Shown here in pieces: positions 2,531-23,300 of a stretch of 34,526 nt of DNA (position 1 is the stretch's first letter; each line of letters starts with the position of its first letter). The stretch spans positions 1 to 34,526 of the forward strand of contig JAJCZB010000034.1 of NCBI GenBank assembly GCA_029262595.1, read 5' to 3'. Made by a program: the position numbers and the translations under genes. Origin of the DNA: Candidatus Babelota bacterium. GTDB taxonomy: Bacteria; Babelota; Babeliae; Babelales; Vermiphilaceae. The notes beneath the pieces are model-generated. The model had not been told where the DNA came from, ran no database searches, and saw only the letters and a list, made by a program, of their open reading frames with translations.

Positions 2531-2568
2531 GAGACTATATTTTGAATCTATGAGGTTTGAGAGGCGCT

Positions 2569-4304: not shown

Positions 4305-4320
4305 CTCTTCGTGTTATATC

Positions 4321-4974
4321 TTATTCTGATAAACGATCAGGTTGAATGATTCCACCAGAAATGATCATTGCCATGGCTTCTTGGCGAGTCAAGTCGATTG
4401 CTTTAAAGTTACTCTCGGAGAGAATAACAAAATACCCACTGGTGGGATTGGGCGTAGTTGGAATGAAAATATTGAAGAATTTTTCTTCTTTTTCAGGAGC
4501 GATGCTAAGGGGCAGTTCGCTTGTTAAAAAGCCGAGACTATAAATCCCTTTCCGGGGAAACTCAACGAGTACCACTTTTTTAAATGTTATTTTATCCTGT
4601 ACGGAAAAGGCATGCACCAATTGCTTAATGCCGGAATATACCGGGCGGATAAGCGGTATTTTAAAGAGGAGCTTTTCTAATTGATGTATGAGATTGCGCA
4701 GCACTAAGGTACGAATCACAACTCCAAAAAAAACAATGCCGAGCAGTAAAAGAAAGCCTTGATTGGCTATCGCTCTATAAGGGACAGTCGCAATAAATTC
4801 TATCGGATGCTCAATAAATTTTTGTACCGGGCTGAGCCAGTTGATAATCAGGCGAGCAGAGAGAAGAAATAGTCCCATAGTGAGCGTGAAGGGCAATATA
4901 ACGAGTAGCCCATTAATAAATGCTCGGGTGAAGTAGTGGCTCACTGATTGTAAAAAAGTGCGCTTGTGTGCCAT
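4321..4974 (-). CDS. DUF502 family membrane protein
   Basis: A 217-residue integral membrane protein of the DUF502 family, whose function is unknown. Two hydrophobic segments are visible: one around residues 20-43 (INGLLVILPFTLTMGLFLL) and one around 70-90 (GFLLLLGIVFFGVVI). The family-typical segment IPLIRPVYSGIKQLVHAF follows, then a soluble C-terminal half with TTPNPTSGYFVIL. The frame is open further upstream into glmM, but ATG at 4974 is chosen because AAGGG lies about 6 bases before it and because the protein then begins with a basic N terminus before the first membrane helix. It is the last gene of the cdaA-like/cdaR/glmM operon, 10 bases after glmM, and converges with the holA-like gene 16 bases away. 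Confidence 0.85.
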   Translation of the reverse strand: MAHKRTFLQSVSHYFTRAFINGLLVILPFTLTMGLFLLSARLIINWLSPVQKFIEHPIEFIATVPYRAIANQGFLLLLGIVFFGVVIRTLVLRNLIHQLEKLLFKIPLIRPVYSGIKQLVHAFSVQDKITFKKVVLVEFPRKGIYSLGFLTSELPLSIAPEKEEKFFNIFIPTTPNPTSGYFVILSESNFKAIDLTRQEAMAMIISGGIIQPDRLSE

Positions 4975-4984
4975 GAGGCCCTTT

Positions 4985-7643: not shown

Positions 7644-8645
7644 ATGGAACAAAAACAAATTGTATTAACGGGAGACCGCCCGACGGGCCCACTTCATTTG
7701 GGGCACTATGTGGGATCACTTGCAAATAGACTTGAGCTTGAAAAGAAATATAAACAGTATGTGATGATCGCTGATGTGCAAGCGCTTACTGATAATTTTG
7801 AGCATCCGGAAAAAATACGAAGAAATGTACTTGAGGTCGGCCTTGATTATTTAGCGGTTGGGCTGGATCCAGACAAGACTACCTTTTTTATTCAATCAAT
7901 GATTCCGCAAATCGCTGAGCTTACGATGTTTTATTTGAACTTAGTCACCGTGAGCAGGCTTGAGCGTAATCCAACGGTGAAGACTGAAATTAAAGATCGC
8001 AATTTTGAGCGAAGTCTTCCCGCAGGATTTCTCATGTATCCAGTCAGCCAAGCAGCTGATATTACGATTGTGAAAGGGACCCTTGTTCCTGTTGGCGAAG
8101 ATCAGCTTCCTATGATTGAGCAAACAAATGAGATTGTGCGCAGCTTTAATCGCATTTATAAAACGGATGTGTTGCATGAAGCAAAAGCATTGATTTCTAA
8201 TGTACCGCGTCTTCCCGGCACGGATGGTACGAAAATGAGTAAATCTGCGGGTAATGCAATTTCGCTCGGAGATTCTCTGGACGACATTTCCAAAAAAGTA
8301 ATGAGTATGTATACCGATCCTGATCATGTTCGCGTTGAGGATCCGGGGAAGGTAGAAGGAAACGTGGTATTTACGTATCTCGATGTATTTGATTCAAACA
8401 AGCAGGAAGTTGCGCAGTTAAAAGCGGAGTATCAAAAAGGTGGCTTGGGAGATGTGAAGCTCAAGCGCCGCCTCATTGATATATTGGATGCATTTATTGC
8501 TCCGATTCGTGAGCGGCGTGAGCAGCTTGCAAAGGATCCAAACTATGTGATGAACGTCCTTTTAGACGGTACCAAGAAAACCTTGCACGTAGCAGAACAA
8601 ACCATGTACGATGTGCGCAGAGCAATGCTATTGGATTATAAATAA
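7644..8645 (+). CDS. trpS: tryptophanyl-tRNA synthetase
   Basis: TrpRS charges tRNA-Trp with tryptophan and is a class I synthetase. With start ATG at 7644 the protein has 333 residues, close to the usual 325-340. It shows the class I signature PTGPLHLGH at 13-21 (HIGH-type) and KMSKS at 197-201. It also carries family landmarks: DVQALTDNF, the LTMFYLN segment, [11 protein letters not shown] and PVGEDQ. The frame is open another 38 codons upstream, but AAGGTT about 7 bases before 7644 and the family N terminus support the later start. It diverges from the cdaA-like operon and is followed 14 bases later by a small membrane-anchored protein. Confidence 0.97.
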
Positions 8646-8659
8646 TAAAAGGGGTTTAT

Positions 8660-9172
8660 ATGAAACGTCGTGGTCGTATAGCGATTAGCTTGGGGACTGG
8701 GGTGGTGATTGTTGGTCTTTTGGCTGTTTCGTTTGTTAATTTTTTTTATCGCTCTGATATTGTTACTAGTACAGTTATTACGCAAGATATTAAGCGCTTA
8801 TCTGGTATTTTTCAAACCATTCATGAGCAGTGTACTATTCTCGGATTTGATAACCAGCAAAACAGAATCAACTTTTTAAACACGTGTAATTTTACTGGAT
8901 CTGAAGTTGGCCCCATGAATTTGGCGCGCCCTGAAAAATGGCAAGGGCCATACGTGCAAGATAATCCTACCATTCAATCAAAAGAGTTTATGGTAGTGCG
9001 GACTAAGCAGGGCTACTTTATCACTCCAGGCAAAGGCGTTCGTTTGCCGAATGGCAAAGTGATTGGCAAAGATATTGTGTTCGATGAGAATGCAGATATC
9101 AAATCGATGATGGATGATAAAAATGCACTTTCATTTAAAGGCGAATCGTTTGCGCAGAAGTTGAATATATAG
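8660..9172 (+). CDS. membrane-anchored protein of unknown function, possibly pseudopilin-like
   Basis: I do not recognise a named family. The 170 residues begin with a basic stretch (MKRRGR), followed by one long hydrophobic helix (about 7-30) and a soluble domain of about 135 residues. That domain contains two Cys residues (in QCTILGF and NTCNFTG), a WQGPYV segment near 95 and a C-terminal part rich in short strands with Gly turns. The overall plan (one N-terminal helix, then a small alpha/beta head with W.GPY) recalls pseudopilin heads of the GspG type, but the FTLIE-type prepilin cleavage motif is absent. A strong AAAAGGGG lies 8 bases before ATG. It is probably co-transcribed with trpS. 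It converges on the helicase gene with only 2 bases between stops. Confidence 0.7.
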   Translation: MKRRGRIAISLGTGVVIVGLLAVSFVNFFYRSDIVTSTVITQDIKRLSGIFQTIHEQCTILGFDNQQNRINFLNTCNFTGSEVGPMNLARPEKWQGPYVQDNPTIQSKEFMVVRTKQGYFITPGKGVRLPNGKVIGKDIVFDENADIKSMMDDKNALSFKGESFAQKLNI

Positions 9173-9174
9173 TT

Positions 9175-11439
9175 TTATATCACTTGTAAAAAACGAGACA
9201 TTATTTTTTTGATGCCAGATTTAAACTTCACTGTGATGATAATGTTGGCATTTTTTTTATCCACGTCTTGCACGAGTCCCATGCCGAATGTTTTGTGGCG
9301 CACTGGTTGATTGCGTTTAAATCCTGATGAGAGCTTTTCTGGCTTGTCTTGCTTTGCAAAAGTAGGCTTTGTTTTTTTATTCACCGATTTACGCGCGGGC
9401 TTTGCTGATATTTTATCTTTAATCAGCGATGCAAACTGTGCTTGTTTTGCAGCAATCTCTGGCTGATTAAATCCGAGCCAGTCAGCGCAAAAGTGGCGAA
9501 TTTGAGAATGGTTCCAGTATTGCGCATCATCTCGTGTAACTAATTTTTTCGGCAGTTCATCTAAAAATTGAGATGATAATTGATCTACCATTTGGCCATA
9601 CGTATATCTAAATTTTGCATGAGAAAACAGTAGATAGTTTTTGGCGCGCGTTATGCCGACGTAAAATAAGCGGCGTTCTTCTTCAAGTGCGTCGTCATTT
9701 TCATAGAGTGCGCGCGAAGTGGGCAAAATGCCTTCTTCAAGGCCCGCCAAAATCACGATATCAAACTCTAATCCTTTAGCTGCATGGAGCGTCATTAAAA
9801 GGACTTTGTGCTCGTCATCATCCGAGGCGATGAGCTTTTCTTGCATGAGCGCAACTTCGTCTAGAAATGCAGAAATAGTTTGCACTTTTTGCGCTTCAAA
9901 ATGGCTCATTGCATTGAGTAGTTCATTCACGTTTTCTATGCGCGTTTGCGCATCATCGCCTTCATAGGTTTTTTTCAAGTAGGCGGTGTATTCAATACGA
10001 TCAAGAATTTTTTGAGCGGCTTCTCTGGGTTTGCTTTCAGGCTCGATCTCATCAAATATATGAATAAATTGAGAGAGCGCTTTTTTCTTTGATGGAGGCA
10101 ATCCTTCGCTGAGTTGCTCGGCTGCTTGCTTGAACGTTAAAAACGGCTGTTCAGTCATTACTGCGTAGAGCTTCTCTTCAAACTTTGCGCCAAATCCGCG
10201 AGCGGGCGTATTCAAAATACGAAAAAGTGATGCGCGATCAAACGGGTTCATAACTAATTTAAGATACGCAAGCAAATCTTTAATCTCTTTACGCTCATAA
10301 AATTGTACGCCACCGATAATTTTATATGGGATACCATTCTTTAAAAATGATTCTTCAATTGCTCGTGATTGCGCGTGCGTGCGATAAAGTACTGCCATTG
10401 AAGGAGTATCAGTTTGTTCACGAGCGATCGATGCAAGTTGGGTGATTACGTCTGCTTCTTGGTATTCAGACATACACGTGATTTGCTTAGTGCGATTTGT
10501 GCCGGTGCGATCAGACCATAATTTTTTTGGATTACGCTGCGTATTATTTTTAATAACAGTATTAGCTGTTTCTAGTATGGGCTGTACAGAGCGATAATTT
10601 TGCTCAATGGCAATGCGCGTGGTGCCGGTAAAATCTTTTTTAAAGTTGAGCATATTAGTAACAGTCGCGCCACGCCATGCATAAATGGATTGATCTTCAT
10701 CGCCTACTGCGCAGATAGAATCAAGGACAAGTTTTTTGGTGCGCAGCGCCATTTGTTTGAGTAGCTCGTGCTGCACAAGATTGGTATCTTGATACTCATC
10801 GACCATTACGTGCCTGATATTACTTTGGAACTGCTCTTTAAACTTTTTATTTTTTTTAAAGAGGCGTACAGTCTCAAGCAGTAAATCATCAAAATCGAGC
10901 GTTTTGCTTTCTCGTTTTTCTTTTTCGTATGCGGTGTAAACGTCCGGCAGTAAAGGGTGATCAAACAGTTCAACTGCAGGCCGTGAAAGGGCGGTAAGTT
11001 TATTTTTAGCATTGGAAATTTGGTAGCCTGCTTGACGCGCAGAAAGTTGCTGGTGCATGTTGGCGCGATGTAGAATACCAGAAAGAAGTTTTCTTTTATC
11101 GTCTTCGTCTAAAATTGAGATAAATGGGTTTTCTAAAAGCGCGCTATTTTCTTTTAAAATGCGAACGCAATATGAGTGAAAGGTTCCTACAAACGGAAGA
11201 TCTTTATCTGATCCAATAAATCCTGCAATACGCTCTTTCATTTCAGTAGCGGCTTTATTAGTAAAAGTCAGCGCGATAATTTCACGAGCAGGAACACCGT
11301 TATCAACAATTAAATGCGTAATGCGTGCGGTAATAACGCGTGTTTTTCCCGATCCTGCGCCAGCGACGACTAAAAGAGGGCCCGTCACATGCTCTACAGC
11401 TTTTTTTTGTGGCGTATTGAGTGAGATTTTTGTACTCAT
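9175..11439 (-). CDS. pcrA: UvrD/PcrA-family ATP-dependent DNA helicase
   Basis: Superfamily 1A 3'-5' helicase acting in nucleotide excision repair and removal of recombination intermediates. The 754 residues show the Q-motif region LNTPQKKAV, Walker A AGAGSGKT (26-33), motif Ia TFTNKAA, motif II DEYQDT (214-219), motif III GDEDQSIYAWRGA, motif IV QNYRS, motif V TLHAAKGLEFD and motif VI EERRLFYVGITRA. The last 50 residues (HKTFGMGLVQDV...VKFKSGIKKI) match the Tudor-like C-terminal domain that lets PcrA/UvrD bind RNA polymerase. A Lys-rich linker of about 40 residues precedes that domain. The Shine-Dalgarno sequence before ATG 11439 is poor (AAAAAGC). Monocistronic, divergent from the DUF421 gene. 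Confidence 0.95.
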   Translation of the reverse strand: MSTKISLNTPQKKAVEHVTGPLLVVAGAGSGKTRVITARITHLIVDNGVPAREIIALTFTNKAATEMKERIAGFIGSDKDLPFVGTFHSYCVRILKENSALLENPFISILDEDDKRKLLSGILHRANMHQQLSARQAGYQISNAKNKLTALSRPAVELFDHPLLPDVYTAYEKEKRESKTLDFDDLLLETVRLFKKNKKFKEQFQSNIRHVMVDEYQDTNLVQHELLKQMALRTKKLVLDSICAVGDEDQSIYAWRGATVTNMLNFKKDFTGTTRIAIEQNYRSVQPILETANTVIKNNTQRNPKKLWSDRTGTNRTKQITCMSEYQEADVITQLASIAREQTDTPSMAVLYRTHAQSRAIEESFLKNGIPYKIIGGVQFYERKEIKDLLAYLKLVMNPFDRASLFRILNTPARGFGAKFEEKLYAVMTEQPFLTFKQAAEQLSEGLPPSKKKALSQFIHIFDEIEPESKPREAAQKILDRIEYTAYLKKTYEGDDAQTRIENVNELLNAMSHFEAQKVQTISAFLDEVALMQEKLIASDDDEHKVLLMTLHAAKGLEFDIVILAGLEEGILPTSRALYENDDALEEERRLFYVGITRAKNYLLFSHAKFRYTYGQMVDQLSSQFLDELPKKLVTRDDAQYWNHSQIRHFCADWLGFNQPEIAAKQAQFASLIKDKISAKPARKSVNKKTKPTFAKQDKPEKLSSGFKRNQPVRHKTFGMGLVQDVDKKNANIIITVKFKSGIKKIMSRFLQVI

Positions 11440-11565
11440 ATGCTTTTTTCGGTCTAAGGGTTTCAGTGATGAATAGTATAAAGTGTTTTGCTTTATTTTC
11501 CGAGAGCAAATTTTTTATAGTGCTCATGATGGATTTGTGAAAACATATAGTGCAGAGGAAAATAC

Positions 11566-12120
11566 ATGAATTGGATAGTAGATGAACTGTATCGTCTTTT
11601 CATTGGCTCTGAGTTTGAGTGGCTTCATTTATTTGAAATTATGTTTCGAACAGCATTTATGTTTTTTTATACCATTTTAAATGTGCGATTAATGGATAAA
11701 CGAAGTATGGGAATGCTGAGTCCCTTTGAAATTATTATTATTATTGCGCTTGGATCAGCGGTAGGCGATCCTATGTTTTATCGAGAAATTCCGCTCGTGT
11801 ATGCCATGGTAGTTATTTCTACGATTGTTTTTGCAGAGCGAGTAATCACTAAAGTATCAATGTTAAGTAGTTTTTTTGAGCGTCTGATTAATGGTGACCC
11901 AGTATTGATTATACGCGGCGGGCAATTAGTTAAGAGCGCTATGAGCGATCAAAATATCTCAAAAGAAGAGATCTATTCCCTTTTGCGTATGCGGGGAATT
12001 TTGCGCTTGGCGGACGTTGAATATGCGTACCTTGAGCCTTCGGGTAGCATCAGCATTATCAAGAAAGATGGAGCTCTTGGTGGGGATGTTATTCCTGAGA
12101 GCTCACGAATAAGGGCATAA
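11566..12120 (+). CDS. DUF421 family membrane protein (YetF-like)
   Basis: A 184-residue protein of the DUF421/YetF family, a group of membrane proteins of unsettled function. Hydrophobic segments span about 22-40 (EIMFRTAFMFFYTIL), 54-72 (FEIIIIIALGSAVGD) and 76-92 (PLVYAMVVISTIVFA). A cytosolic alpha/beta domain follows with the family pattern INGDPVLIIRGGQLV, an EEIYSLLRMRGI segment and VEYAYLEPSGSISIIKK. AGAGGA precedes the ATG by about 8 bases. It converges on a second, diverged DUF421 gene with only 6 bases between the two stop codons. Confidence 0.87.
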   Translation: MNWIVDELYRLFIGSEFEWLHLFEIMFRTAFMFFYTILNVRLMDKRSMGMLSPFEIIIIIALGSAVGDPMFYREIPLVYAMVVISTIVFAERVITKVSMLSSFFERLINGDPVLIIRGGQLVKSAMSDQNISKEEIYSLLRMRGILRLADVEYAYLEPSGSISIIKKDGALGGDVIPESSRIRA

Positions 12121-12126
12121 GTATTT

Positions 12127-12636
12127 TTAAGTTCTTTTTTCAATAAAGTTAATGGTGCCATCGCTTGCAAGAATGGCAGATTCAACTTTGTTGAAATTAT
12201 TTGTATGTAACTGTGCATTAAGTTCATTAAGAAGCTCTTGCTCAGTGATATAGTACTTGCGCATTTTGGACCACTGTATTTCACCGTCTTTTAACAAGAT
12301 TGATGGCTGGCCTTTTACAAAATCTTCTATTGAAGGAGAATAGTAAGCAAGCAAGGTCATAAGGCCATTTAGCATTGTTAATGCAACGATAGTTGCTAAA
12401 ATAGGAATAAAAGAGCTGCCATCTATTATGGCTTGTGCGAAAATAGAACCAAGCATAACGAACAAAATAAAATTGAAGGGGGTTCGTACTCCAATTAATT
12501 TTTTATTAAAACGTGCAAGACTTATTCCTACAAAATAGATGATAATACCACGAATGATCATCATAAGCGCATCGGGTATTGTCATAAAATTAAATCCAAA
12601 TGAATCCAAAAGGTAATCTAAAATTGAATTCCACAT
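12127..12636 (-). CDS. DUF421 family membrane protein, second copy
   Basis: A 169-residue protein with the same plan as its convergent neighbour: membrane helices near 19-38, 53-70 and 74-96, then a C-terminal domain with VKGQPSILLKDGEIQ, the ELLNELNAQLHTN segment and VESAILASDGTINFI. The two copies share layout but little direct sequence, so the duplication is old or one was acquired separately. Start ATG at 12636 has a good AAGGAGAG about 5 bases upstream. It lies 23 bases downstream of hpt on the same strand and is probably co-transcribed with it. Confidence 0.82.
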   Translation of the reverse strand: MWNSILDYLLDSFGFNFMTIPDALMMIIRGIIIYFVGISLARFNKKLIGVRTPFNFILFVMLGSIFAQAIIDGSSFIPILATIVALTMLNGLMTLLAYYSPSIEDFVKGQPSILLKDGEIQWSKMRKYYITEQELLNELNAQLHTNNFNKVESAILASDGTINFIEKRT

Positions 12637-12659: not shown

Positions 12660-13268
12660 TTATGAAACTAATGTATAAATCGCCGGGAGATTTCTTCCCA
12701 ATTGCGCATAATCCAAACCATACCCAATTACAAAGTCCGGCGCAATCTCAAATCCTACATAATCGAGTGGGAAATCGAGATTGGAAAGTTTTTTATCAAG
12801 TAAAGTAGCGATACGAATGGAGCTTGGATTTGAATGCTGCAAAAGACCGCGTAAAAATTCCATTGATAAGCCAGTATCCACAATATCTTCAACGATGATC
12901 ACATCGCGGCCGGAAATGTCTGTGCTCAATGCTTGCAATACATTTATGCTTCCAGATGATCTGGTTGCATTCTGATAGCTTGATATTTGTAAAAAAGCCA
13001 CTTCGCATTCTAAATCAACCGCTTTCACTAAATCAGAGAGAAACATAAACGCACCTTTTAATACGCCAATAAAAATTGGGCGCTTGCCCGCATAATCTTT
13101 TGTGATTTGTGCGCCGAGCTGCCGAATGCGTGCTTCAATGTCCGTTTGGCTGATGCTTACTTCAAATGTTTTGTCATGTAGGGTGACGCGTTGTGGAGTA
13201 CTCATAACAATTGATTCCATTGAGAGTAAAAGAAGTGTGAGTGCTATATATGAAGCTTTTTTGTGCAT
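12660..13268 (-). CDS. hpt: hypoxanthine phosphoribosyltransferase with N-terminal signal peptide
   Basis: HPRT transfers phosphoribose from PRPP to hypoxanthine or guanine to make IMP or GMP. The PRPP-binding loop VIIVEDIVDTGLS is at 123-135. Other family landmarks are GVLKGAFMFLSDL near 68-80, AFLQISSYQN and the C-terminal DFVIGYGLDYAQ. The enzyme core begins at about residue 23. Before it is an extra segment, MHKKASYIALTLLLLSME, which has the basic start and hydrophobic core of a signal peptide. The upstream ATG at 13268 has a good AAAGGG Shine-Dalgarno sequence 5 bases away. The internal ATG at 13205 would give a normal cytosolic enzyme but has no good ribosome binding site. The longer form is therefore preferred, though dual starts are possible. 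Confidence 0.9.
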   Translation of the reverse strand: MHKKASYIALTLLLLSMESIVMSTPQRVTLHDKTFEVSISQTDIEARIRQLGAQITKDYAGKRPIFIGVLKGAFMFLSDLVKAVDLECEVAFLQISSYQNATRSSGSINVLQALSTDISGRDVIIVEDIVDTGLSMEFLRGLLQHSNPSSIRIATLLDKKLSNLDFPLDYVGFEIAPDFVIGYGLDYAQLGRNLPAIYTLVS

Positions 13269-13308
13269 GATGCCCTTTCAGTGATGTGTACGCTTTTTAT
13301 TTGGGCAA

Positions 13309-13337
13309 AGTGTAGCGATGGGAGATGCAAATGTCTA
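13309..13337 (-). promoter_or_regulatory. candidate promoter for hpt-DUF421
   Basis: On the minus strand TAGACA (13337-13332) and TACACT (13314-13309) are 17 bases apart. The -35 matches consensus at five of six bases and the -10 at four of six. The predicted start, near 13302, lies about 35 bases before the long-form hpt ATG, so the transcript would include the signal-peptide codons. Confidence 0.4.
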
Positions 13338-13354
13338 GCGGAGTACAGTTTAGG

Positions 13355-13382
13355 GTGACAAAATCAAAATATAAGGTAGTAT
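13355..13382 (+). promoter_or_regulatory. candidate promoter for the M48-like gene
   Basis: GTGACA (13355-13360) and TAGTAT (13377-13382) with a 16-base spacer lie 50 bases before the ATG at 13432. They sit back to back with the hpt promoter in the 163-base divergent region. Hexamer match only. Confidence 0.3.
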
Positions 13383-13431
13383 TTGCTGCATTTAAGGTCC
13401 AATGAGTAATCGTATTAAAGAGAGGATTTCT

Positions 13432-14214
13432 ATGAAGATTTTTAAAGCAGCTCTGCTTATTTCACTTTGTTTTCTTGCAAATCATATGCGCGCATTGCCG
13501 GGCCATCCGAGCGATCGGCTTCTTGCGCAAATTTTGGTTGGCGGATGGGGGTGTGCTGATCTTAAACCGCAAAATGAGCGATTTGTGCGTGACATGGCCT
13601 ATGAAATGGGATTGAAAAACCCAGAAGCGATTTATATTAAGCGGTTGAGCCAGCATGTAATACGCGATGGCGTTTATGAAAGAAGTGAGATGCCGGTACA
13701 GATTCCTGGGGTTACAGCGTTCGTCACGGGCCCTACATTTAATGATTATACTGCCATGGCCGTGCATTGTTTTGGATTTGTAAGAAGTATTTTTATCGAT
13801 GAAAAAGTATTTGAAACGCTTTCATTAGATGAAAAGAGATTTGTCGTTGGGCGAGAATTAATGCGTATTAAGCAGGATCACTTAATAAAAAGAGCTGCTA
13901 CTGCTACAGCCGTTGCTATGACGGTAGTAGGGGCTCCGTTATTGCCTTTTGCCGCTCCATACATTGATCGTAGTTATGATATGAGCGCGGATCTAGAGGC
14001 GGCAAAGCAACTCAAAGTATTTAATGCAGCGATTGCGTATTATCGCGGGATGAGCAAATACAAAAAAGAGTGTTCAGACGATTTGCGCCCATGGAAGCTC
14101 GCTAAGCTGAAAAGAAAGATTGGAAAGTTATTGGGATGCTTGTTTACTACGCACCATCCATTTCGCAAAAAAAGAAACATTTTGCTGCACGAGAAATCAA
14201 TATACGGCAACTAA
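13432..14214 (+). CDS. exported M48-like protein without the zinc site (pseudopeptidase)
   Basis: A 260-residue protein with a signal peptide (MKIFKAALLISLCFLANHMRA). Its middle follows the layout of M48 metallopeptidases: a GVTAFVTGPTFNDYTAM segment (as in the NAFA..G..I part of M48), then SIFIDEKVFETLSLDEKRFVVGRELMRIKQDH. The zinc motif HExxH is replaced by RELMR (141-145), so both His ligands are missing, and the later E-x-x-x-D element appears as DMSADLEA (183-190). A hydrophobic stretch (about 156-177) follows. Catalysis of the M48 type is not possible with these residues. ATG at 13432 is preferred over 13402 because AGAGGA precedes it and the signal peptide then starts cleanly. Its stop codon overlaps that of the convergent sodC. 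Confidence 0.6.
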   Translation: MKIFKAALLISLCFLANHMRALPGHPSDRLLAQILVGGWGCADLKPQNERFVRDMAYEMGLKNPEAIYIKRLSQHVIRDGVYERSEMPVQIPGVTAFVTGPTFNDYTAMAVHCFGFVRSIFIDEKVFETLSLDEKRFVVGRELMRIKQDHLIKRAATATAVAMTVVGAPLLPFAAPYIDRSYDMSADLEAAKQLKVFNAAIAYYRGMSKYKKECSDDLRPWKLAKLKRKIGKLLGCLFTTHHPFRKKRNILLHEKSIYGN

Positions 14215-14802: not shown

Positions 14803-14934
14803 CATCCTTCGATACATTCGACTTCGCTTATGCTGCGTAGAACACTCAGGATGAGCGGGAACTATATTTAAAGCTTATTTTTTACGCTCGTCCTGAGTGA
14901 TTTTGAGCGAAGCATAAAATTGTATCGAAGGATG
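14803..14934. repeat. long imperfect inverted repeat between glycosyltransferase cluster and sodC
   Basis: The left arm (about 14803-14859) and right arm (about 14884-14934) are inverted copies. The outer 14 bases, CATCCTTCGATACA, match exactly, and the inner CACTCAGGA-GAGCG block matches at all but one base. The middles of the arms differ in length and sequence, and a loop of about 25 A/T-rich bases separates them. It could be a terminator for the glycosyltransferase operon, a small non-autonomous element, or a dispersed genomic palindrome. No second copy is seen in this window. Confidence 0.8.
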
Positions 14935-14939
14935 GAAAA

Positions 14940-16241
14940 TTATTGTGTAGGCGCCATCATTTCAAGCTCTCGTTTAACTTTTTCAATCACGTCACTCCAT
15001 TCTCCTTGGCGTGTTTGTTTAAAAAGACGCATAGTTGGATACCACGGAGAATCGGATCGATCTTCAAACCATCGAAAATCGGCAGCAAATGGAAGCATCA
15101 CCCATACTGGAACTCCGAGTCCGCCAGCAAGATGTGCAATAGAGGTGTCAACAGTTATTACAAGATCAAGTTGCTTCATGAGAGCTGCAGTATCCATGAA
15201 GGCACCAGAAGTGCGATCGAGTTGATCAAAAACGTGGACATTTGGATATGCGTTGAATTGTTTTACTTGCTCATTTTCTCTCACTTGTAAATTATAAAAA
15301 TGCACGTTGGGTGTAGAGAAAAGTGGCATGATTTCAGATGCGTGCATACCGCGCGGACCCGGGTTCACTGTATTTGAGAAAAAGTCACGCATCTTAGTGC
15401 TTGCAAAGCAAATGCCGACTTTTAGTCCGTTGTCTTGAACTATTGCTTGTTGCCATTGCTCGCATAATTGTGCATCCGCATGCAGGTAGGGAACGTCTTT
15501 TGATGGTGCGCGTAAGGTCTCTCGCATAGCTAATGTGAGACGGTCAGCAGTGAGGGCGTAAGTAACGTCGTGCAACGGCTTGGGCTGCTTGCAGGAAATA
15601 ACGTCTACTAAATATGGGCATAAAGAAAGGAGGGGTATAAGCTCGGGGCGAACATAGGCCAAAATATATGCGCCTGCTTCGTATAAATGTTTTGCATACC
15701 GCACAATTTGCATTACATCGCCATGGCCATTCCATTCAGAGCTTAAATCAAGCAGTACAATTTTATTATGTACGTCTGCGTTGCTCCATTTTAAATCGTT
15801 TACGTTGCATAGTTTGAGTGCGTAATACCAATCCATATCGCGTAGATAGAGGGGAAGAAGTTTTGTACGTAGCTCTGCGTTATTTGGTTCTGCACCAAAA
15901 TGCTTTTCAATAATGTCTCGTGCGAGAGCTGAATGGCCTGCGTGATATGCTGCCAAGGCGTATGCATAAATATATTGTGTGTGATCACTATTATGCTCGT
16001 AGGATTGCTTTAAGTAGTGGAGTGCCTTGGGGCCGTCTTGCGCGCAATGATGCACGAGTCCGATACCGTAGAGTGCTTCTGGGTGGTTGGGGGATTGAGT
16101 GAGCGCTTGATCAAAAAATGCAAGAGCAACATTTTTATTTTTTTGTCGCAGTGCAGCGTTGCCCTTCTTAATGAGTTCATCAGCCGATTCTGCATGCATG
16201 CACGATGAGATCAATGCGATCATCACAATTATTTTTTTCAT
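14940..16241 (-). CDS. exported TPR / GT9-like glycosyltransferase, paralogue 1
   Basis: 433 residues. A signal peptide (about 1-17, ending MHA) is followed by three to four TPR-like helical repeats (about 20-150). The C-terminal domain follows the GT-B fold pattern of family GT9-like transferases: WNGHGDVMQIVRYAKHL (N-terminal lobe), LKVGICFAS (start of second lobe), SGAFMDTAALMKQLDLVITVDTSIAHLAGGLG and the closing FRWFEDRSDSPWYPTMRLFKQ. The usual GLGD loop reads GHGD, a deviation from its paralogues. The acceptor and donor are unknown. It is the last gene of the cluster, overlapping the previous one by 4 bases (ATGA), with a distant AGGA as ribosome binding site. GT function is inferred from family resemblance. 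Confidence 0.82.
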   Translation of the reverse strand: MKKIIVMIALISSCMHAESADELIKKGNAALRQKNKNVALAFFDQALTQSPNHPEALYGIGLVHHCAQDGPKALHYLKQSYEHNSDHTQYIYAYALAAYHAGHSALARDIIEKHFGAEPNNAELRTKLLPLYLRDMDWYYALKLCNVNDLKWSNADVHNKIVLLDLSSEWNGHGDVMQIVRYAKHLYEAGAYILAYVRPELIPLLSLCPYLVDVISCKQPKPLHDVTYALTADRLTLAMRETLRAPSKDVPYLHADAQLCEQWQQAIVQDNGLKVGICFASTKMRDFFSNTVNPGPRGMHASEIMPLFSTPNVHFYNLQVRENEQVKQFNAYPNVHVFDQLDRTSGAFMDTAALMKQLDLVITVDTSIAHLAGGLGVPVWVMLPFAADFRWFEDRSDSPWYPTMRLFKQTRQGEWSDVIEKVKRELEMMAPTQ

Positions 16242-17530
16242 GAGTTATTATTCCTGTGAGTAAAAATAAGTTCAGTTAGTTTTTGTTTGATGGTAATTAC
16301 AACTTCCGTCCAGTCGCCATAGCTGCGTTGGCGAAAGAGGTGAACATCTGGGTAGAGAGGAGAGCGTTCTTGATCGGTAAACCAGCGATAGTCCGGCTCG
16401 CATGAAAGCAGGAGCCAGACAGGCTTGCCCAAGGCGCCTGCAAGATGCGCAATAGAGGTATCTACCGTAATAACCACATCCATATTCATAATTAAAGCAG
16501 CGGTATCCATGAAACGTCCATGTGATTCGTCAAAATCATCGCTATAGTGCGTGATGGCCAATGGACTCTCGATTGGATCAGTACTTTTTTGGAGGCTATA
16601 AAAGGCAATCCTGGAATCGGCGAGTGGTGCGAGCGCTTCAAGTGAAATACTACGTGGGCTGGGAATTACTTTTTCGGTAAATCGATCGCGTACAAAATTG
16701 CTTCTCCAGCAAAGGCCCACTTTCAACTGTGCATTGTTTGCAATGCGATTGCTCCAAAATGTAACCAATTCGGGGTCTGCTGTTAGGTAGCTTTTTTGTG
16801 GCGTACGCATCATAATGCGATTTTTGTTTTGCAGTAAGAACGACGCAATGCAAATGTCGTACTTCTGATCGTATGCGGGAAGGGGATCGTCTTTTGTGAT
16901 GAGTTGATCAATGAAAGCACATCGTTTTAAAAGATGGTGTAAGGGAGCCGGCGCTTTGACGATTACATATGCTCCAGCTTGTTTGAGTGCTTGTGCATAC
17001 CCAGCAAACTGAATGACATCCCCTAATCCGTTGCCTGCTTTATCGCTATCAAGCAAAATACTTTTTCCATATATATTTTCGCCGTACCACCACAGCTGAG
17101 GGGATTGTATTGCGACTGCTTTACTCCACTGTTTGCTGCGAATATACAATTTGAAAAGCGCGCTTTTAACTTGATCGCTTTGATTAGTTTGATACACCGT
17201 TTCGTAATGCTCAAGCGCTTTGCTGAGATTACCACTCATGCGGTAGGCGGTTGCGCAATTATACCTCGTATTAGCATGATGAGGCTGCAGTTTGAGTGCG
17301 CGTTCATAATAAACGGCTGCTTGCGTATAGTCATGTATCAAAAAAAGGGTTGTTGCTGTTTGTAAGAGTACGCTTACATCTTGAGGATTGGCTTGTTCTG
17401 CTTTCTGCAGAAGGGTAAGCGCTAGCGATGCATTTTTTTCTCGTAAGGCGGTGGCAACCTCTTGAGTATATTCATGTGCAAAAGAGCATGCACTTATTAG
17501 TAGTAACGCGGAGACGCAGAATGATTTCAT
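16238..17530 (-). CDS. exported TPR / GT9-like glycosyltransferase, paralogue 2
   Basis: 430 residues with a signal peptide (about 1-18, ISACSFA). Three to four TPR units cover about 20-145, including a canonical one ending YYERALKLQPHHANTRYNCATAY. The transferase domain has GNGLGDVIQFAGYAQAL, LKVGLCWRS, HGRFMDTAALIMNMDVVITVDTSIAHLAGALGKPVW and YRWFTDQERSPLYPDVHLFRQ. All motif positions present in the larger paralogues are kept, so it is likely to be active if they are. The start ATG overlaps the stop of the upstream DUF6165-like gene by one base (TAATG) with GGAG about 6 bases before, which indicates translational coupling. Confidence 0.84.
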   Translation of the reverse strand: MKSFCVSALLLISACSFAHEYTQEVATALREKNASLALTLLQKAEQANPQDVSVLLQTATTLFLIHDYTQAAVYYERALKLQPHHANTRYNCATAYRMSGNLSKALEHYETVYQTNQSDQVKSALFKLYIRSKQWSKAVAIQSPQLWWYGENIYGKSILLDSDKAGNGLGDVIQFAGYAQALKQAGAYVIVKAPAPLHHLLKRCAFIDQLITKDDPLPAYDQKYDICIASFLLQNKNRIMMRTPQKSYLTADPELVTFWSNRIANNAQLKVGLCWRSNFVRDRFTEKVIPSPRSISLEALAPLADSRIAFYSLQKSTDPIESPLAITHYSDDFDESHGRFMDTAALIMNMDVVITVDTSIAHLAGALGKPVWLLLSCEPDYRWFTDQERSPLYPDVHLFRQRSYGDWTEVVITIKQKLTELIFTHRNNNS

Positions 17531-18000
17531 TAATACTCCGAGTACTGTTTTTCTTCGATGATTGCAGATCCAGTTAGTTCATTGATAGCGCGCTTGATGC
17601 GGCATCGTTTATCGTTGGTGAAATAAACTGAACGACAAATTTTAATAAATTCAGTATCAAAACTTTTTTGGGCTTCTTTTGCGCGAATAGCATCTTCAAT
17701 ATTCCATAATTTTTGGTTGACCTGTAAAAGTTGTTGCTTGAGCTCGAGTAATCTTTTTTCAATTGCAGGCGTTATGATCTTTTTTTTCTCAATTGTTTCT
17801 TGTAAGCATTTGAGTTCAAAGGCTACATTTGCTCGTTGTTGTTCGTTTGTAAAGCGCGCTACTTTAATTTCCAAAATGGTCATTTTATCAAACAGTTCTC
17901 CTACCGATACAGGAGTCGATATTTTTTGGGCATCCAAAGCAATTGCTCCAGAAATACTTAATAGCGATAGAACGAAAAGTGAAGTGTATTTGTGCTTCAT
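17530..18000 (-). CDS. exported DUF6165-like protein
   Basis: 156 residues with a signal peptide (about 1-21, ending in GAIALDA). The remainder is almost wholly helical. It matches my recollection of the DUF6165 pattern: VSVGELFDKMTILEIKVARF near 30-50, a long amphipathic helical part with KRLLELKQQLLQVNQKLWNIEDAIRAKE, FIKICRSVYFTNDKRCRIKRAIN and a final EEKQYSEY. The family function is unknown. It is encoded between two TPR-glycosyltransferases and overlaps the next start by one base, so it should be made together with them. A role as a partner or regulator of the transferases is inference from position. The C-terminal coiled part of paralogue 4 is another helical add-on of similar size. Confidence 0.7.
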   Translation of the reverse strand: MKHKYTSLFVLSLLSISGAIALDAQKISTPVSVGELFDKMTILEIKVARFTNEQQRANVAFELKCLQETIEKKKIITPAIEKRLLELKQQLLQVNQKLWNIEDAIRAKEAQKSFDTEFIKICRSVYFTNDKRCRIKRAINELTGSAIIEEKQYSEY

Positions 18001-18041
18001 TTAAATACTCTCTTCTTTTAGTGTTAAAAAAACTTTTATTT

Positions 18042-19448
18042 TTAGTGCGTTGTATATATCTCGTTAAAAAATGTCTCATGTAATTTTTTTATTATTGATT
18101 CCCAATTAAAAGGTTTTTCTTGTTGGAAAATACGCATAGTTGGGTACCACGGAGTATCGGATCGCCCAGCGAGCCAGCGCCAATCAGCATTGAAAGGAAG
18201 CAGAAGCCATGTTGGCCTTCCCATTGCACCAGCTAAATGAGCGGTAGCGGTATCGGTACTTATAATGAGATCCAGTGAGTGCATGAGGGCAGCGGTATCC
18301 ATAAAGCTGCCGTGCGTCTCATCAAATTCTTGGCCAAATGCTTTAATAGTGACGTTTTCTGGAAGCGCATTCAATTGGTCGAGGCCTTCTTTTTTTTGCA
18401 GGCTATAGAGTGTAATTCCGGGCGTTGATGCGAGGCTGTAAAAGTGAGAAAGTGGAATGCCACGGCGTGCGATGGGAAGTCGAGAGACATCATTGTGCGT
18501 ATCGGGCTGCCAACAAATACCAATTTTGAAGTTGGTGTCGTTTTTCAGTTGCTCTTGCCAGTAAGCAAGCCGTTCGGGATCAGGAAAAATATAGGGAATG
18601 TTTTGTGGGATTGTGCGTTCATCATCTTCAAAAAATGCTGCCAAACTCATAAGGGTTGCTTTTGCATGATATCCAGGAATCGGATCGATATTGGTTACAA
18701 GGGTATCGATATAGTGGCATCGCGACAAAATGGGAATTAGCGGTGCTTGCACTACTACTGTTACATGTGCGCCCATTTCTTTTATGCGCTGTGCATATCG
18801 GATAAAGTTGAGTGTATCTCCCAGGCCTCCTTCGTATGTAAGTAGGATACGTTTGCCGGCAATCGTGCCATTGGCAATGTAGGCTCGCAGTTCAGGGGAG
18901 TCTTTTCCCTGTTGCGTTATATTCCATGCATGCTCTTTCCATCCGTCAGCGTAGTTTCCTTGTGCGAGATGGGCGAAAGCGAGTCCCAAGTGGGCTGGCG
19001 CATAGTCGGGATGATGTGAAACGATGTGCTGATACAGTTTGATTGCAGTGGTATAGTCGCCAGCGGTTTTGAGTGAAAATCCTGCATTATATAATACGGA
19101 AGTGAGACTGGGGTTGTGCTCCAATATTTTTTTGTATGCGTTGAGTGATTCTTGTAATTTTCCGATTCGGCATGCATATGAGCCGAGTTGAAAAAGCCAT
19201 TGTAAATTGTTGGGTTGTAGCTGGGTTGCCTTTTTTAAATGAAACAATGCTTTTTCATAATAGTCATATAGGTCGAGCGATGCTAAATAATCACCATAAG
19301 AAAAATGAGCGTTCGCGCTTTCAGGCTCTTGCGCGATCCGGGCGTCATGTTGATCGATTGTTTCTTGTATCGTGCTATCAAGTGCATCGGCATGCATTAG
19401 TATGCTGCATGTGAGTGCTAGGATGAGTGCGTTGCGCGTACGTATCAT
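18042..19448 (-). CDS. exported TPR / GT9-like glycosyltransferase, paralogue 3
   Basis: 468 residues. The N terminus (MIRTRNALILALTCSILMHADA) is a signal peptide. About four TPR units span 40-180, for example LYNAGFSLKTAGDYTTAIKLYQ. The transferase half has YEGGLGDTLNFIRYAQRI, FKIGICWQPDTHNDVSRLP, HGSFMDTAALMHSLDLIISTDTATAHLAGAMGRPTW and WRWLAGRSDTPWYPTMRIFQQ. Relative to its neighbours the VDTS stretch reads STDTAT. A 32-base segment (18508-18539) is identical to one in paralogue 5. Its start overlaps the stop of paralogue 4 by one base, with GGGAAG inside the paralogue 4 coding end. It is followed 41 bases later by the DUF6165-like gene. Confidence 0.84.
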   Translation of the reverse strand: MIRTRNALILALTCSILMHADALDSTIQETIDQHDARIAQEPESANAHFSYGDYLASLDLYDYYEKALFHLKKATQLQPNNLQWLFQLGSYACRIGKLQESLNAYKKILEHNPSLTSVLYNAGFSLKTAGDYTTAIKLYQHIVSHHPDYAPAHLGLAFAHLAQGNYADGWKEHAWNITQQGKDSPELRAYIANGTIAGKRILLTYEGGLGDTLNFIRYAQRIKEMGAHVTVVVQAPLIPILSRCHYIDTLVTNIDPIPGYHAKATLMSLAAFFEDDERTIPQNIPYIFPDPERLAYWQEQLKNDTNFKIGICWQPDTHNDVSRLPIARRGIPLSHFYSLASTPGITLYSLQKKEGLDQLNALPENVTIKAFGQEFDETHGSFMDTAALMHSLDLIISTDTATAHLAGAMGRPTWLLLPFNADWRWLAGRSDTPWYPTMRIFQQEKPFNWESIIKKLHETFFNEIYTTH

Positions 19449-21415
19449 TATTCTTCCCAGGTCGCGATTTTTTCTGTAACGCGTTCTCGCATTTCAGAAA
19501 GTAGGTAGAGTGCGCGGAGTTCTTTTACGAATTCGGGGTTTTGCAAAGACACGGAAAGAGAGCTTAGCTTTTGAGCCTTTTGTTTAAACTTAGCTTCAAG
19601 AAGCGTTTGTTCTTTTTTTAATTGTTCTACGGTTGTCATGCCACACACAGCTGGTTGTTGCGTGTGTTCCTTTGTAAGATCAGTGGGTTGTTTATTAATC
19701 AACTCTGAAGGCGATACAAGTGCTTCAAGTTCTTGGCAAATAGTATGTATCACTGTGTCCCAATCGCCATGCTTTGTTTGCCGAAAGAGTCGCATGTTTG
19801 GGTACCATGGTGTGTCAGTTCGTTTAATCATCCAGCGCCAATCAGCAGGCTCGGGCAAGAGCGTCCATACAGGCGTACCAATTGCAGCGCTTAAATGGCA
19901 GATAGAGGTATCAACTGAAATTACTAAGTCGAGATTTTTAATCACGGCGGCAGTATCCATAAAACGCCCACGGCTTTGATCAAAGTTTTCTTCAAAGGTG
20001 ACGAGCTTAAAATCATCAGAAAGAGTATTGAGTTGATCAACTCCGGTTTCGCGTTGAAGACTATAAAACGTAACGCCTTTTACGCTGCCTAATTGTGCAA
20101 AGGTTGCAAGAGCTGCAGATTTAGCGGCAACTACCGCCCGCAGGAAGGGAGTACTGTATTTATTGTTTCCTTGCCAGCAAATGCCAACCTTTAACTGAGT
20201 ATCTTTTTGCAATCTTCGTTTCCAAAATTCTACGAGCGTTGGATCTGGAGTAATGTATGGAATATCCCGAGGGATGGTCTTTTCATCTGATTTCAAAAGA
20301 AGAGGGAGGGTTAAAAGAGGTGCATGCACATCGAAGTCTGCTGGAACTGCATCAAGAGTAACGACTTGATCAATATAGGGGCAGCATCGAGAAATAAACG
20401 TTTGCAGTGGGCGTTGGGATGCAAAAATAATGGTGACATTGTAGAGATTTTTTAAATGTTTTACATAGCGAACAAATTGAAACGTATCGCCCAGTCCTTG
20501 TTCAGCGTGAAGTAGAATGGTTTTACCGTTCAATGATGAGCCGTCCCATTGTGGGTGCGTAAAGTTGCGCGGCGTAAGCTGGGTATTTCGTTGCCAGCGC
20601 CACTCGTACTCCGGCCAGCCGTTTTTAAAATCTCCTGATGCAAGATACGCAAGCCCTAAACTAAAGTGCGCTTCGGCGTGGTCTGGCTTATGTTTGAGCA
20701 CAGCTTCATAATAGGGCATTGCCTCTTCGATGCGGCCCATTTTTTTCAGTGTGTATGCGGTGTTATATAAAATGCCAACACCAGTAGGATTTCCTTTAAG
20801 GAGATCAAAATATATTTCTACCGCTTTTTCCAGGTGGTTTGTGGTATTGAGTGTGTTTGCATATTCAAATCGTACGTTAGCATCCTGAGGGTTTTTTTGT
20901 AAAAACCGTTCAAAGTAGGGCAGCGCATTTTCAAACTGTTCTTGTTCGCACAAAAGGCGTGCAACGGTAAGTGCGGCATCGATATTATTTGCATCAAACT
21001 GTATTGCTTGCTGAAAATGCTTGATTGCTTGATCAAGTAAGCCGCGTCCTTGTAATAATTTTGCGAGTTGCAGATGCGCTTTGGGGTAATCGAGTCGTTG
21101 TAAAATTGCATCTTTATAGGCTTCGATAGCGCCATCTATATCGTTTTTTCTTTCGAGTGCAAATCCTAAATTGAAATGTGTTTGCGGGACAATAGGTTTT
21201 GCTTCTTTTGCTTTGTTTAAATTGGAAATGGCAGTATCGAGGTCATTCTTACGTAGCGCGTCAGTGCCGCGATTAAAGTAGTCTTCAAAGGTGAGCTTTT
21301 GCTCGGATGCGGGGCTAATTTCTTTTGCGTCAAATTCTGCCATTGCATCGCTTGCTTGGATGGTAATTCCAGCGCAGATGATGCATAAAAAAAGAAAGGG
21401 CTTCACGTGCTTCAT
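19448..21415 (-). CDS. exported TPR / GT9-like glycosyltransferase with C-terminal coiled coil, paralogue 4
   Basis: 655 residues, the longest of the group. Signal peptide about 1-21 (CIICAGITIQASDA). Seven consecutive TPR units lie between about 44 and 285, ending in the family-typical YLASGDFKNGWPEYEWRW. The transferase part has HAEQGLGDTFQFVRYVKHL, LKVGICWQGNNKY, RGRFMDTAAVIKNLDLVISVDTSICHLSAAIGTPVW and WRWMIKRTDTPWYPNMRLFRQ. After it comes an extra segment of about 70 residues with a heptad-like helical tail (EQLKKEQTLLEAKFKQKAQKL onward), absent from paralogues 1-3. AAGGA precedes ATG at 21415 by about 6 bases. It begins 22 bases after paralogue 5. Confidence 0.86.
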   Translation of the reverse strand: MKHVKPFLFLCIICAGITIQASDAMAEFDAKEISPASEQKLTFEDYFNRGTDALRKNDLDTAISNLNKAKEAKPIVPQTHFNLGFALERKNDIDGAIEAYKDAILQRLDYPKAHLQLAKLLQGRGLLDQAIKHFQQAIQFDANNIDAALTVARLLCEQEQFENALPYFERFLQKNPQDANVRFEYANTLNTTNHLEKAVEIYFDLLKGNPTGVGILYNTAYTLKKMGRIEEAMPYYEAVLKHKPDHAEAHFSLGLAYLASGDFKNGWPEYEWRWQRNTQLTPRNFTHPQWDGSSLNGKTILLHAEQGLGDTFQFVRYVKHLKNLYNVTIIFASQRPLQTFISRCCPYIDQVVTLDAVPADFDVHAPLLTLPLLLKSDEKTIPRDIPYITPDPTLVEFWKRRLQKDTQLKVGICWQGNNKYSTPFLRAVVAAKSAALATFAQLGSVKGVTFYSLQRETGVDQLNTLSDDFKLVTFEENFDQSRGRFMDTAAVIKNLDLVISVDTSICHLSAAIGTPVWTLLPEPADWRWMIKRTDTPWYPNMRLFRQTKHGDWDTVIHTICQELEALVSPSELINKQPTDLTKEHTQQPAVCGMTTVEQLKKEQTLLEAKFKQKAQKLSSLSVSLQNPEFVKELRALYLLSEMRERVTEKIATWEE

Positions 21416-21437
21416 TAAAAATCCTTTTTTGATGTCT

Positions 21438-23300
21438 TTAGGAGAGTCTTTCTATTATTTGTTCAAAAAATTGTTGTTGCTCTGGAGTGGGGCGGTGTGG
21501 TTGTAATTCAGTGGTTTCCGGGGGGTTATTTTTTGACTGCATTATTTCTTGAATTGCTTTTACGATTTCTTGAAGAGGCGTTTGCCAGTCTCCTGCAGTG
21601 GGTTGTCTAAAGAGACGCACAGAGGGATACCATGGAGAATCAGATCGATTAAGCAGCCAGCGCCAATCGGCAGGAAAAGGCAGCATAATCCACGTTGGCA
21701 CGTTCATTGCCGCGGCCAAATGGCATACTCCTGTGTCTACTGATATTACAACATCAAGTTGTTTCATTACAGCAGCAGTGTCCATAAAAGCACCGTGTTG
21801 TTTGTCGAATTGCTCATCAAAGATGATGAGAGAGTCTTTAAAGGTGCATCCGGGTATTTGTTCTAAACCATTTATTTGTTGGAGCGAATAGATGCTAACG
21901 CCAGGTAATTCTGAAAGCGGCTGCATTGCTTGTAATGGCAATGATTTTTTTGCAACGGCGCGACGAAGAGACAGAGTGTTGTATTGCGAATTTCCTTGCC
22001 AACAAATACCAATTTTGAAGTTGGTGTCTTGCGCGAGTTTTTCTTTCCAAAAAGCTTCGCGCTGACCATCAGGAGCAAGGTAGGGAATATCCGCAGGAAT
22101 AGTTTCAAGGCGTGTTCGTACTACGTATGGAATACTCATTACGTGTATTTGGTAATCGCATGTAGGAAGGAATTGGCGGCGGGGAATCACTTGATCAATA
22201 TACGGCTGCATTTTTAAAAGGGAGGTGAGTGATGCTTGTGTTTCAAAAATGAGACGAGAATAGGGATATTTTTCTTTAAGCAGTTTTAGGTAGCGAACAA
22301 ATTGAAGGGTGTCCCCGAGTCCTTGTTCTGCATAAATAAGAATACTTTTCCCGTCGAGCGATTCGCCCTTCCATTCGGGAGCGTTACTTTTTTTAGAGTT
22401 TTCGCTGTACGCTTTCCAGCGCCATTCATATTCTGCCCATCCTTTTTCAAGGTCTCCAAGAGTGAGATAAATTGAGGAAAGGCTAAAATGAACGGGGGCA
22501 TAATCAGGTTTTTTGGCGAGTACTTGCTGATATATTTCCAATGCACGATCAAGTTTGCCCATTTTCTTGAGAGTAAAGCCAAAATTATACAGCGCGGAAA
22601 ATGCGTTGGCATTTTTTTGGATTATACGTTGATACCATTCGAGTGCATTTTCATATTCATCAAGCATGTTATATGCGTTCGCAAGATCCATCATGACATG
22701 CACATTATTGGGTTGTAATGCGCAGGCCGTACGGTAGGGGTGGATTGCATTTTCCAATTGGTCTACGTGCCGATATAGATTTCCTATTTGATGCCATGCT
22801 TCAAATGAGTTTGGATCCAGTTGTGATGCTTTTTTAAAGGCCATGAGCGCGCGGGCAATTTGTTGCGATTTCTCATACGCGCCTCCGGCATGGAGCGCTG
22901 CGTTTAGATGTGAGGGATCGAGATCGAGAGCTTTTTGGAACTGTTCCGCTGCCTTGTGCCATTCTTGCTTATGTTGATAGCAAAGGCCGGTATTAAAATG
23001 CATGGAGGCGTCTTGATGCCCTAAACGCCCGGCGTGTTCATACTGGCGCATTGCTTGCTCTTGTTTACGTTGGGAATAATAGAGATTACCCAGTTTAACA
23101 AGCGCGTGCGGATTATCGGGATGATGGCTGAGCGCTTTGGTGTACAGTAATTCAGCTTTTTCGTGCTTGCCAATCTCTTCAAAGTGATCAGCAAGTTCAG
23201 AATATTCTTGAGACAACGCATGATGTTCATTGGGAGGTGGCATATCTGCCGAAATTGCAAGAACGAGACAAAGCGGTAACAAAAATAGATGTTTGTTCAT
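21438..23300 (-). CDS. exported TPR / GT9-like glycosyltransferase, paralogue 5 (first gene of the cluster)
   Basis: 620 residues with signal peptide about 1-18 (LLPLCLVLAISA). About eight TPR units fill 30-290, more than in any other copy. The transferase region has AEQGLGDTLQFVRYLKLL (324-341), FKIGICWQGNSQY (428-440), HGAFMDTAAVMKQLDVVISVDTGVCHLAAAMN (502-533) and WRWLLNRSDSPWYPSVRLFRQ (546-566). A Pro/Gln-rich tail follows. The order TPR then GT-B recalls eukaryotic O-GlcNAc transferase, though the catalytic half looks like GT9, not GT41. Being first, it probably carries the operon promoter. Its AAGGG ribosome binding site is in the loop and its ATG in an arm of an 11-bp inverted repeat. 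Confidence 0.87.
   Translation of the reverse strand: MNKHLFLLPLCLVLAISADMPPPNEHHALSQEYSELADHFEEIGKHEKAELLYTKALSHHPDNPHALVKLGNLYYSQRKQEQAMRQYEHAGRLGHQDASMHFNTGLCYQHKQEWHKAAEQFQKALDLDPSHLNAALHAGGAYEKSQQIARALMAFKKASQLDPNSFEAWHQIGNLYRHVDQLENAIHPYRTACALQPNNVHVMMDLANAYNMLDEYENALEWYQRIIQKNANAFSALYNFGFTLKKMGKLDRALEIYQQVLAKKPDYAPVHFSLSSIYLTLGDLEKGWAEYEWRWKAYSENSKKSNAPEWKGESLDGKSILIYAEQGLGDTLQFVRYLKLLKEKYPYSRLIFETQASLTSLLKMQPYIDQVIPRRQFLPTCDYQIHVMSIPYVVRTRLETIPADIPYLAPDGQREAFWKEKLAQDTNFKIGICWQGNSQYNTLSLRRAVAKKSLPLQAMQPLSELPGVSIYSLQQINGLEQIPGCTFKDSLIIFDEQFDKQHGAFMDTAAVMKQLDVVISVDTGVCHLAAAMNVPTWIMLPFPADWRWLLNRSDSPWYPSVRLFRQPTAGDWQTPLQEIVKAIQEIMQSKNNPPETTELQPHRPTPEQQQFFEQIIERLS

Follow-up and report, generated by a model that had tools for sequence, protein, structure and literature searches.

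A cluster of TPR-glycosyltransferases with predicted export signals and a DUF6165 partner in a Dependentiae genome

Six neighboring genes of a Dependentiae bacterium encode five proteins with TPRs followed by a GT9-like glycosyltransferase domain (TPR-GTs) and one DUF6165 protein, and export of all six proteins is well supported by their predicted signal sequences. On balance, we slightly favor a reading in which the glycosyltransferases (GTs) of this exported set would glycosylate, with the TPRs choosing protein acceptors, at a site outside the inner membrane where host metabolites are at hand.

The window, the whole 34,526-nucleotide stretch of DNA analyzed here, is contig C34 of a MAG of 1.45 Mb (94% complete), and its nearest named relatives by sequence are Candidatus Dependentiae/TM6 MAGs. 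By analogy with cultured relatives (PMC6561590), the source organism probably has an intracellular, parasite-like lifestyle. The rest of its genome was surveyed as a sample of contig stretches. Four contigs of the MAG (L221, L222, L226, and L236) encode proteins of foreign look that have no leaders, and they are likely contamination. A search for viral contigs gave one locus.

Organization of the cluster

The six genes lie head to tail on the minus strand at 14940-23300 (Table 1). An earlier note had proposed this arrangement of five TPR-GT9-like genes and one DUF6165-like gene with overlaps of 1–4 bases or short gaps, and both the open reading frames and Pfam agree with it. The genes at 14940-16241 and 16238-17530 share 4 bases (ATGA), a 1-base TAATG overlap occurs twice (at 17530 and at 19448), and the gaps are 41 bases (18000/18042) and 22 bases (21415/21438). 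The ATGA and TAATG junctions support the annotated start codons of three cluster genes.

All five TPR-GT copies of the genome lie in this cluster. When the cluster was sought in related genomes, as the note had advised, TPR-GTs were found in 24 of 51 relatives, with copy numbers of up to 14. A congener (G001) has the identical gene order, DUF6165 included, and each copy in the window is nearest to its counterpart there. Frames of 895–1194 aa with two or three TPR-GT units in two relatives (L139 of G018 and L146 of G036) suggest gene fusions in expanded clusters.

Downstream of the cluster, a long, imperfect palindrome (14805-14939; folding z of −8.7) matches the genome at 26 places, fully or in part, and is a repeat element. 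The window also encodes two convergent DUF421/YetF-like membrane proteins (11566-12120 and 12127-12636).

Table 1. Positions of the cluster genes, their predicted leaders and motifs, and other leader-bearing enzymes of the same genome. Positions refer to the window unless a locus is given.
Feature	Position	Strand	Remarks
TPR-GT9 protein 1	21438..23300	-	620 aa; GT-B domain after eight TPRs
TPR-GT9 protein 2	19448..21415	-	655 aa
TPR-GT9 protein 3	18042..19448	-	468 aa
DUF6165 protein	17530..18000	-	156 aa; fourth gene in reading order
TPR-GT9 protein 4	16238..17530	-	430 aa
TPR-GT9 protein 5	14940..16241	-	433 aa
Predicted signal peptide, protein 1	23250..23300	-	MNKHLFLLPLCLVLAIS^AD; G001 orthologue also has one
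Predicted signal peptide, protein 2	21338..21415	-	cleavage between residues 20 and 26
Predicted signal peptide, protein 3	19392..19448	-	von Heijne-type scan
Predicted signal peptide, DUF6165 protein	17938..18000	-	homologues in Alphaproteobacteria align from residue 25-31 onward and have no leader
Predicted signal peptide, protein 4	17477..17530	-	possible lipobox ISAC
Predicted signal peptide, protein 5	16191..16241	-	possible lipobox ISSC
GLGD motif, protein 1	22311..22322	-	residues 327-330; GT9 catalytic-Asp motif
DTGVCH motif, protein 1	21720..21737	-	residues 522-527; GT9 donor-site motif
Hypoxanthine phosphoribosyltransferase (Hpt)	12660..13268	-	predicted signal peptide; TIGR01203, 187.8 bits from residue 37
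PurA	L224 (C41) 4089-5420		leader; complete enzyme
GuaB	L224 (C41) 8413-9915		leader; complete enzyme
GuaA	L224 (C41) 10085-11665		leader; complete enzyme
PRPP synthetase (Prs)	L224 (C41) 12821-13864		leader; complete enzyme
GT2, Gmd, Fcl, ManC operon-like run	L180 (C61) 629-4793		predicted signal peptides on Gmd, Fcl, and ManC; N-terminal anchor on GT2

Predicted export signals

A Sec-type signal sequence was called on all six cluster proteins in a von Heijne-type scan (scores of 6.2–12.6, threshold 3.5), bearing out the signal-peptide-like start seen earlier on each. The predictor is home-made and combines a von Heijne-type weight matrix with a hydropathy rule; it was calibrated with housekeeping proteins of the window and shuffles as controls. 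No signal was called on UvrD, HflX, Ffh, the FtsH-like protease, or other housekeeping proteins of the window, and whole-protein shuffles were called at 5–6%. By prediction, the leaders have the n-, h-, and c-regions of a Sec substrate at the true start. Those of the TPR-GTs have a mean n-region charge of +1.9, against −0.9 for the first 15 mature residues, which corresponds to a C-terminus-out orientation. Lipoprotein anchoring was rejected as a general rule, with a possible lipobox in just two of the six proteins here and in 2 of 80 among relatives.

The leader is conserved across Dependentiae. Among 93 TPR-GTs from 21 genomes of this group, 67 were called at the longest start and 80 within 60 codons, and many of the 13 uncalled proteins are visibly hydrophobic at the N-terminus. 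The corresponding counts outside Dependentiae are 10 and 21 of 74, and the contrast is truly larger because four of those ten called copies are stray Dependentiae sequences (L061) that slipped into the set. In Planctomycete and Proteobacterial homologues the domain is mostly right at the N-terminus, and Alphaproteobacterial TPR-GTs and DUF6165 proteins start directly at the domain without a leader. Other open reading frames at the same loci were called at the longest start in 44% of cases in Dependentiae (49/111) and 12% elsewhere. Signals were found on 49 of 106 proteins in the contig sample of the source genome, and 44% of Chromulinavorax proteins have signal sequences (PMC6561590). Because nearly half of the proteins bear a signal, a signal alone does not set the cluster apart.

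The first 25 residues are 12–35% identical to those of the G001 orthologues, whereas whole proteins are 54–67% identical, with dN of 0.26–0.38 and dS of 2.2 or more. On these comparisons, the predicted leader is drifting but maintained, on putative enzymes under purifying selection. In a tree of GT domains, 97 of 102 Dependentiae domains fall in one clade (support 0.75); the data are consistent with a leader that would have been gained once, early, in Dependentiae TPR-GTs.

Glycosyltransferase and TPR domains

Pfam identified TPRs in all five long proteins, followed by a GT9-like part of about 280 residues. Three proteins exceed the cut-off of PF01075 (GT9) (25.4, 25.1, and 23.7 vs 22 bits) and two fall narrowly below it (18.6 and 19.3). 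TIGR04414 (BAHT/TibC protein heptosyltransferases) was hit in one protein only, at 17.3 bits vs a cut-off of 200. The fold prediction proposed in the note gave a GT9 fold for the GT half (model ma3206b5de46f, pLDDT 94), with 1psw, 3tov, and 2gt1 as top matches. The model resembles WaaF, the GT9 protein 3tov, WaaC with ADP-heptose, and TibC, and a profile match to 3tov aligned the GD and D-x-x-x-x-H motifs. In WaaC, the corresponding residues serve catalysis and donor binding. Together with the GxGD and DTxxxH motifs, this fold upholds the assignment as a GT9-like domain. Across Dependentiae GT domains the GxGD Asp is kept in 98%, the DTxxxH Asp in 99%, and the His in 96%, about as in cytosolic homologues. 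The TPR-GTs are probably catalytically active. Characterized GT9 members are cytosolic, whereas those described here have predicted signal sequences.

Exported non-enzymes, in which the GT-B domain would have become a scaffold or lectin that binds glycans or nucleotides, seem quite improbable to us. The QG that follows GICW is less strictly kept in Dependentiae than in other groups, and a nucleotide sugar is not expected in an ordinary periplasm, both of which would suit a binding protein. However, the catalytic Asp, DT, and His positions are kept in 90–99% of 102 Dependentiae domains, and the donor enzymes appear to be exported too (see below).

In the AlphaFold model of protein 1, eight TPR helix pairs span residues 23-291. 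The repeat number drops along the cluster, as judged from the length preceding the GT half, which fits the earlier count falling from about eight. The note had likened the proteins to O-GlcNAc transferase. The TPR/GT-B layout is indeed shared, but the proposed kinship was rejected: the modeled GT half matches GT9 heptosyltransferases, and no GT41 family appears among the Pfam hits shown for the cluster proteins. SPINDLY is the top match of the full-length model (TM of 0.3–0.4), driven by the TPRs.

The DUF6165 protein

The fourth protein matches PF19662 (DUF6165) with 34.8 vs 27 bits. DUF6165 was found in 21 of the 51 relatives, and every one of them belongs to the 24 that have TPR-GTs (p = 2e-11); in Dependentiae it lies inside the cluster or, in several cases, is fused to a TPR-GT frame. 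It also adjoins or is fused to TPR-GTs in Alphaproteobacteria and stands beside ADP-heptose genes in Sulfitobacter, and Caulobacter alone among 14 control genomes has it. Nothing relevant emerged from the literature on DUF6165 or on glycosyltransferases in Dependentiae or Babela in the searches made. At the cluster ends of G021, G026, and G028 (L140, L143, and L145) a short, divergent GT remnant shares a frame with DUF6165.

Leader-bearing enzymes of sugar-nucleotide and purine metabolism

Enzymes of nucleotide sugars and nucleotides are textbook cytosolic proteins. In the same genome, ManC, Gmd, Fcl, GalU, and several GTs have signals or anchors joined to complete enzymes. The question raised in the note, how exported GTs would find a donor, was the right one, and these enzymes offer a likely answer to it. 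NCBIfam profiles match Gmd and Fcl from residue 24 (580 bits, cut-off 415, and 495 bits, cut-off 500, respectively), GalU (on C7, with an N-terminal membrane segment) from residue 42 (288 bits, cut-off 327), and ManC from residue 28, below the cut-off because the model takes in a second domain. The leaders are directly ahead of complete domains, with profile position 1–4 at residue 23–42.

Where the Gmd locus was retrieved, 21 of 22 genomes in family f1 and one of 8 outside it have a Gmd with a leader (p = 3e-5). Four f1 genomes (G009, G016, G025, and G026) have kept a second Gmd without a leader. In the Gmd tree, a single clade unites the copies with leaders apart from that of G015, whose putative leader is a separate gain; G012 lies inside the clade without a called leader. 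Genes with leaders near the exported Gmd loci encode GT2, GT6, Gly_transf_sug, UDP-glucose dehydrogenase, and sulfotransferase-domain proteins. One sulfotransferase-domain protein with a leader (L215 14122-14949) lies beside exported Gmd/Fcl. Exported transferases of the GT6 family, the blood-group ABO type, are encoded at L213 13921-14676 and L243 12118-12876 (the latter assigned by likeness only). The other GTs of the source genome, including separate cytosolic GTs at L243 5904-11231, have no leader, so leaders are confined to some of the GTs. GDP-fucose can be named as a candidate donor. It was rejected as an established donor because the distributions of Gmd and TPR-GTs do not track each other: seven f1 genomes with an exported Gmd lack TPR-GTs, and no exported Gmd accompanies the exported TPR-GTs of G036 and G040.

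Purine enzymes have leaders as well (Table 1). Hpt, in the window and outside the six-gene cluster, is complete after residue 36. Serine hydroxymethyltransferase, a PurN-like formyltransferase, and a deoxynucleoside kinase in the genome sample also bear leaders, and none was found there on LeuRS, ribosomal S1, TypA, AtpA, DnaJ, PurM, or PurB; the leader-bearing families were confirmed by profile and the leaderless ones named by eye. GuaB is rare in relatives, and all five complete copies, from five genomes, have the leader. The genome encodes two secretins (C66) and a TLC-type nucleotide carrier, and the cluster proteins could possibly pass beyond the outer membrane via the secretins. We tentatively suggest, at a little under even chances, that in a lineage of Dependentiae exported enzymes sustain a self-supplying purine-nucleotide and glycosylation metabolism outside the inner membrane, either within the cytosol of the host or in a periplasm open to it. 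Purine nucleotides, GDP-fucose, and UDP-glucose would be made there and used by exported transferases, and the carrier could bring products home.

It is very improbable, in our judgment, that these N-termini are not export signals and that the proteins remain cytosolic. The home-made origin of the predictor, the usual retention of nucleotide-dependent enzymes inside the cell, and the unusual number of leader-bearing metabolic enzymes would fit such a view. It conflicts with the start codons backed by the ATGA/TAATG overlaps, with the leaders directly preceding complete domains, with the Gmd pairs with and without a leader in the four f1 genomes, and with the lack of leaders on the foreign-looking contigs of the same MAG.

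Proposed function

We infer the donor, the protein acceptors, and the compartment as follows. The TPR-GT/DUF6165 module, cytosolic in other phyla, would have gained signal peptides and multiplied in Dependentiae. Its products here would be five Sec-exported GT9-fold glycosyltransferases, the TPR superhelix of each picking acceptor proteins, with the exported DUF6165 protein as their partner. The site of action would most likely be the cytosol of the host or a periplasm whose small molecules are shared with that cytosol. Such a site is favored because the substrates of the exported enzymes, among them GTP, PRPP, NAD(P)H, and sugar phosphates, would be at hand there; an ordinary periplasm would leave these enzymes without a use. 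Donors would come from the host cytosol and from exported makers, namely ManC, Gmd, and Fcl (GDP-fucose) and the outward-anchored GalU (UDP-glucose). The targets would be host proteins or the exported and surface proteins of the parasite itself.

In the main alternative, which we consider unlikely but serious, the exported proteins would work in the periplasm and modify the envelope of the bacterium itself (its LPS, S-layer, or pili), with donors diffusing in from the host or produced on site by co-exported enzymes. The lipobox fit in two of six proteins and the longer N-terminal anchors of some relatives' TPR-GTs would place them there; relatives within GT9 modify LPS and autotransporters, and cytosolic homologues are located in envelope polysaccharide or heptose loci. 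However, most leaders look cleavable, the TPRs and the multiplication to as many as 14 copies suggest protein acceptors, and the same genome encodes separate GTs of the cytosolic kind that usually builds envelope glycans.

If the action on protein acceptors with host metabolites at hand is correct, leaders added to cytosolic enzymes, with a cytosolic twin sometimes kept, would amount to metabolism moved outside the cell. The ways in which intracellular parasites exploit or rewrite the metabolism and glycosylation of their protist hosts would then become open to testing, and the uncharacterized TPR-GT9/DUF6165 module would gain a setting.

Comparison with known systems

The note had regarded the cluster as a candidate undescribed system. 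The TPR-GT and DUF6165 module is known to annotation in Alphaproteobacteria, and what appears to be undescribed is its export. The paper on Chromulinavorax destructans emphasizes ankyrin proteins and hydrolases, and its main text contains no word beginning with glycosyl (PMC6561590). The closest counterparts, in Alphaproteobacteria (e.g., Paroceanicella and Azospirillum plasmids) and Planctomycetes, have TPRs and then the same GT domain, with about 38–47% identity over the GT half. They differ in having no signal peptide.

FlmG of Caulobacter, a cytosolic flagellin O-glycosyltransferase in which the TPR domain binds the acceptor and the GT-B domain transfers the sugar (PMC7591256), is similar in layout, judging from its description, with N-terminal TPRs and a C-terminal GT-B domain. 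Unlike the cluster proteins, it is soluble and cytosolic, and its donor is pseudaminic acid. WaaF/WaaC and TibC, whose folds match the GT half best, share the GD and D-[TS]-x-x-x-H motifs, but they lack TPRs, are cytosolic, and are only 12–15% identical. SPINDLY, which uses GDP-fucose, and O-GlcNAc transferase (GT41) likewise place a TPR superhelix before a GT-B domain, whereas the GT half of the cluster proteins is GT9-like.
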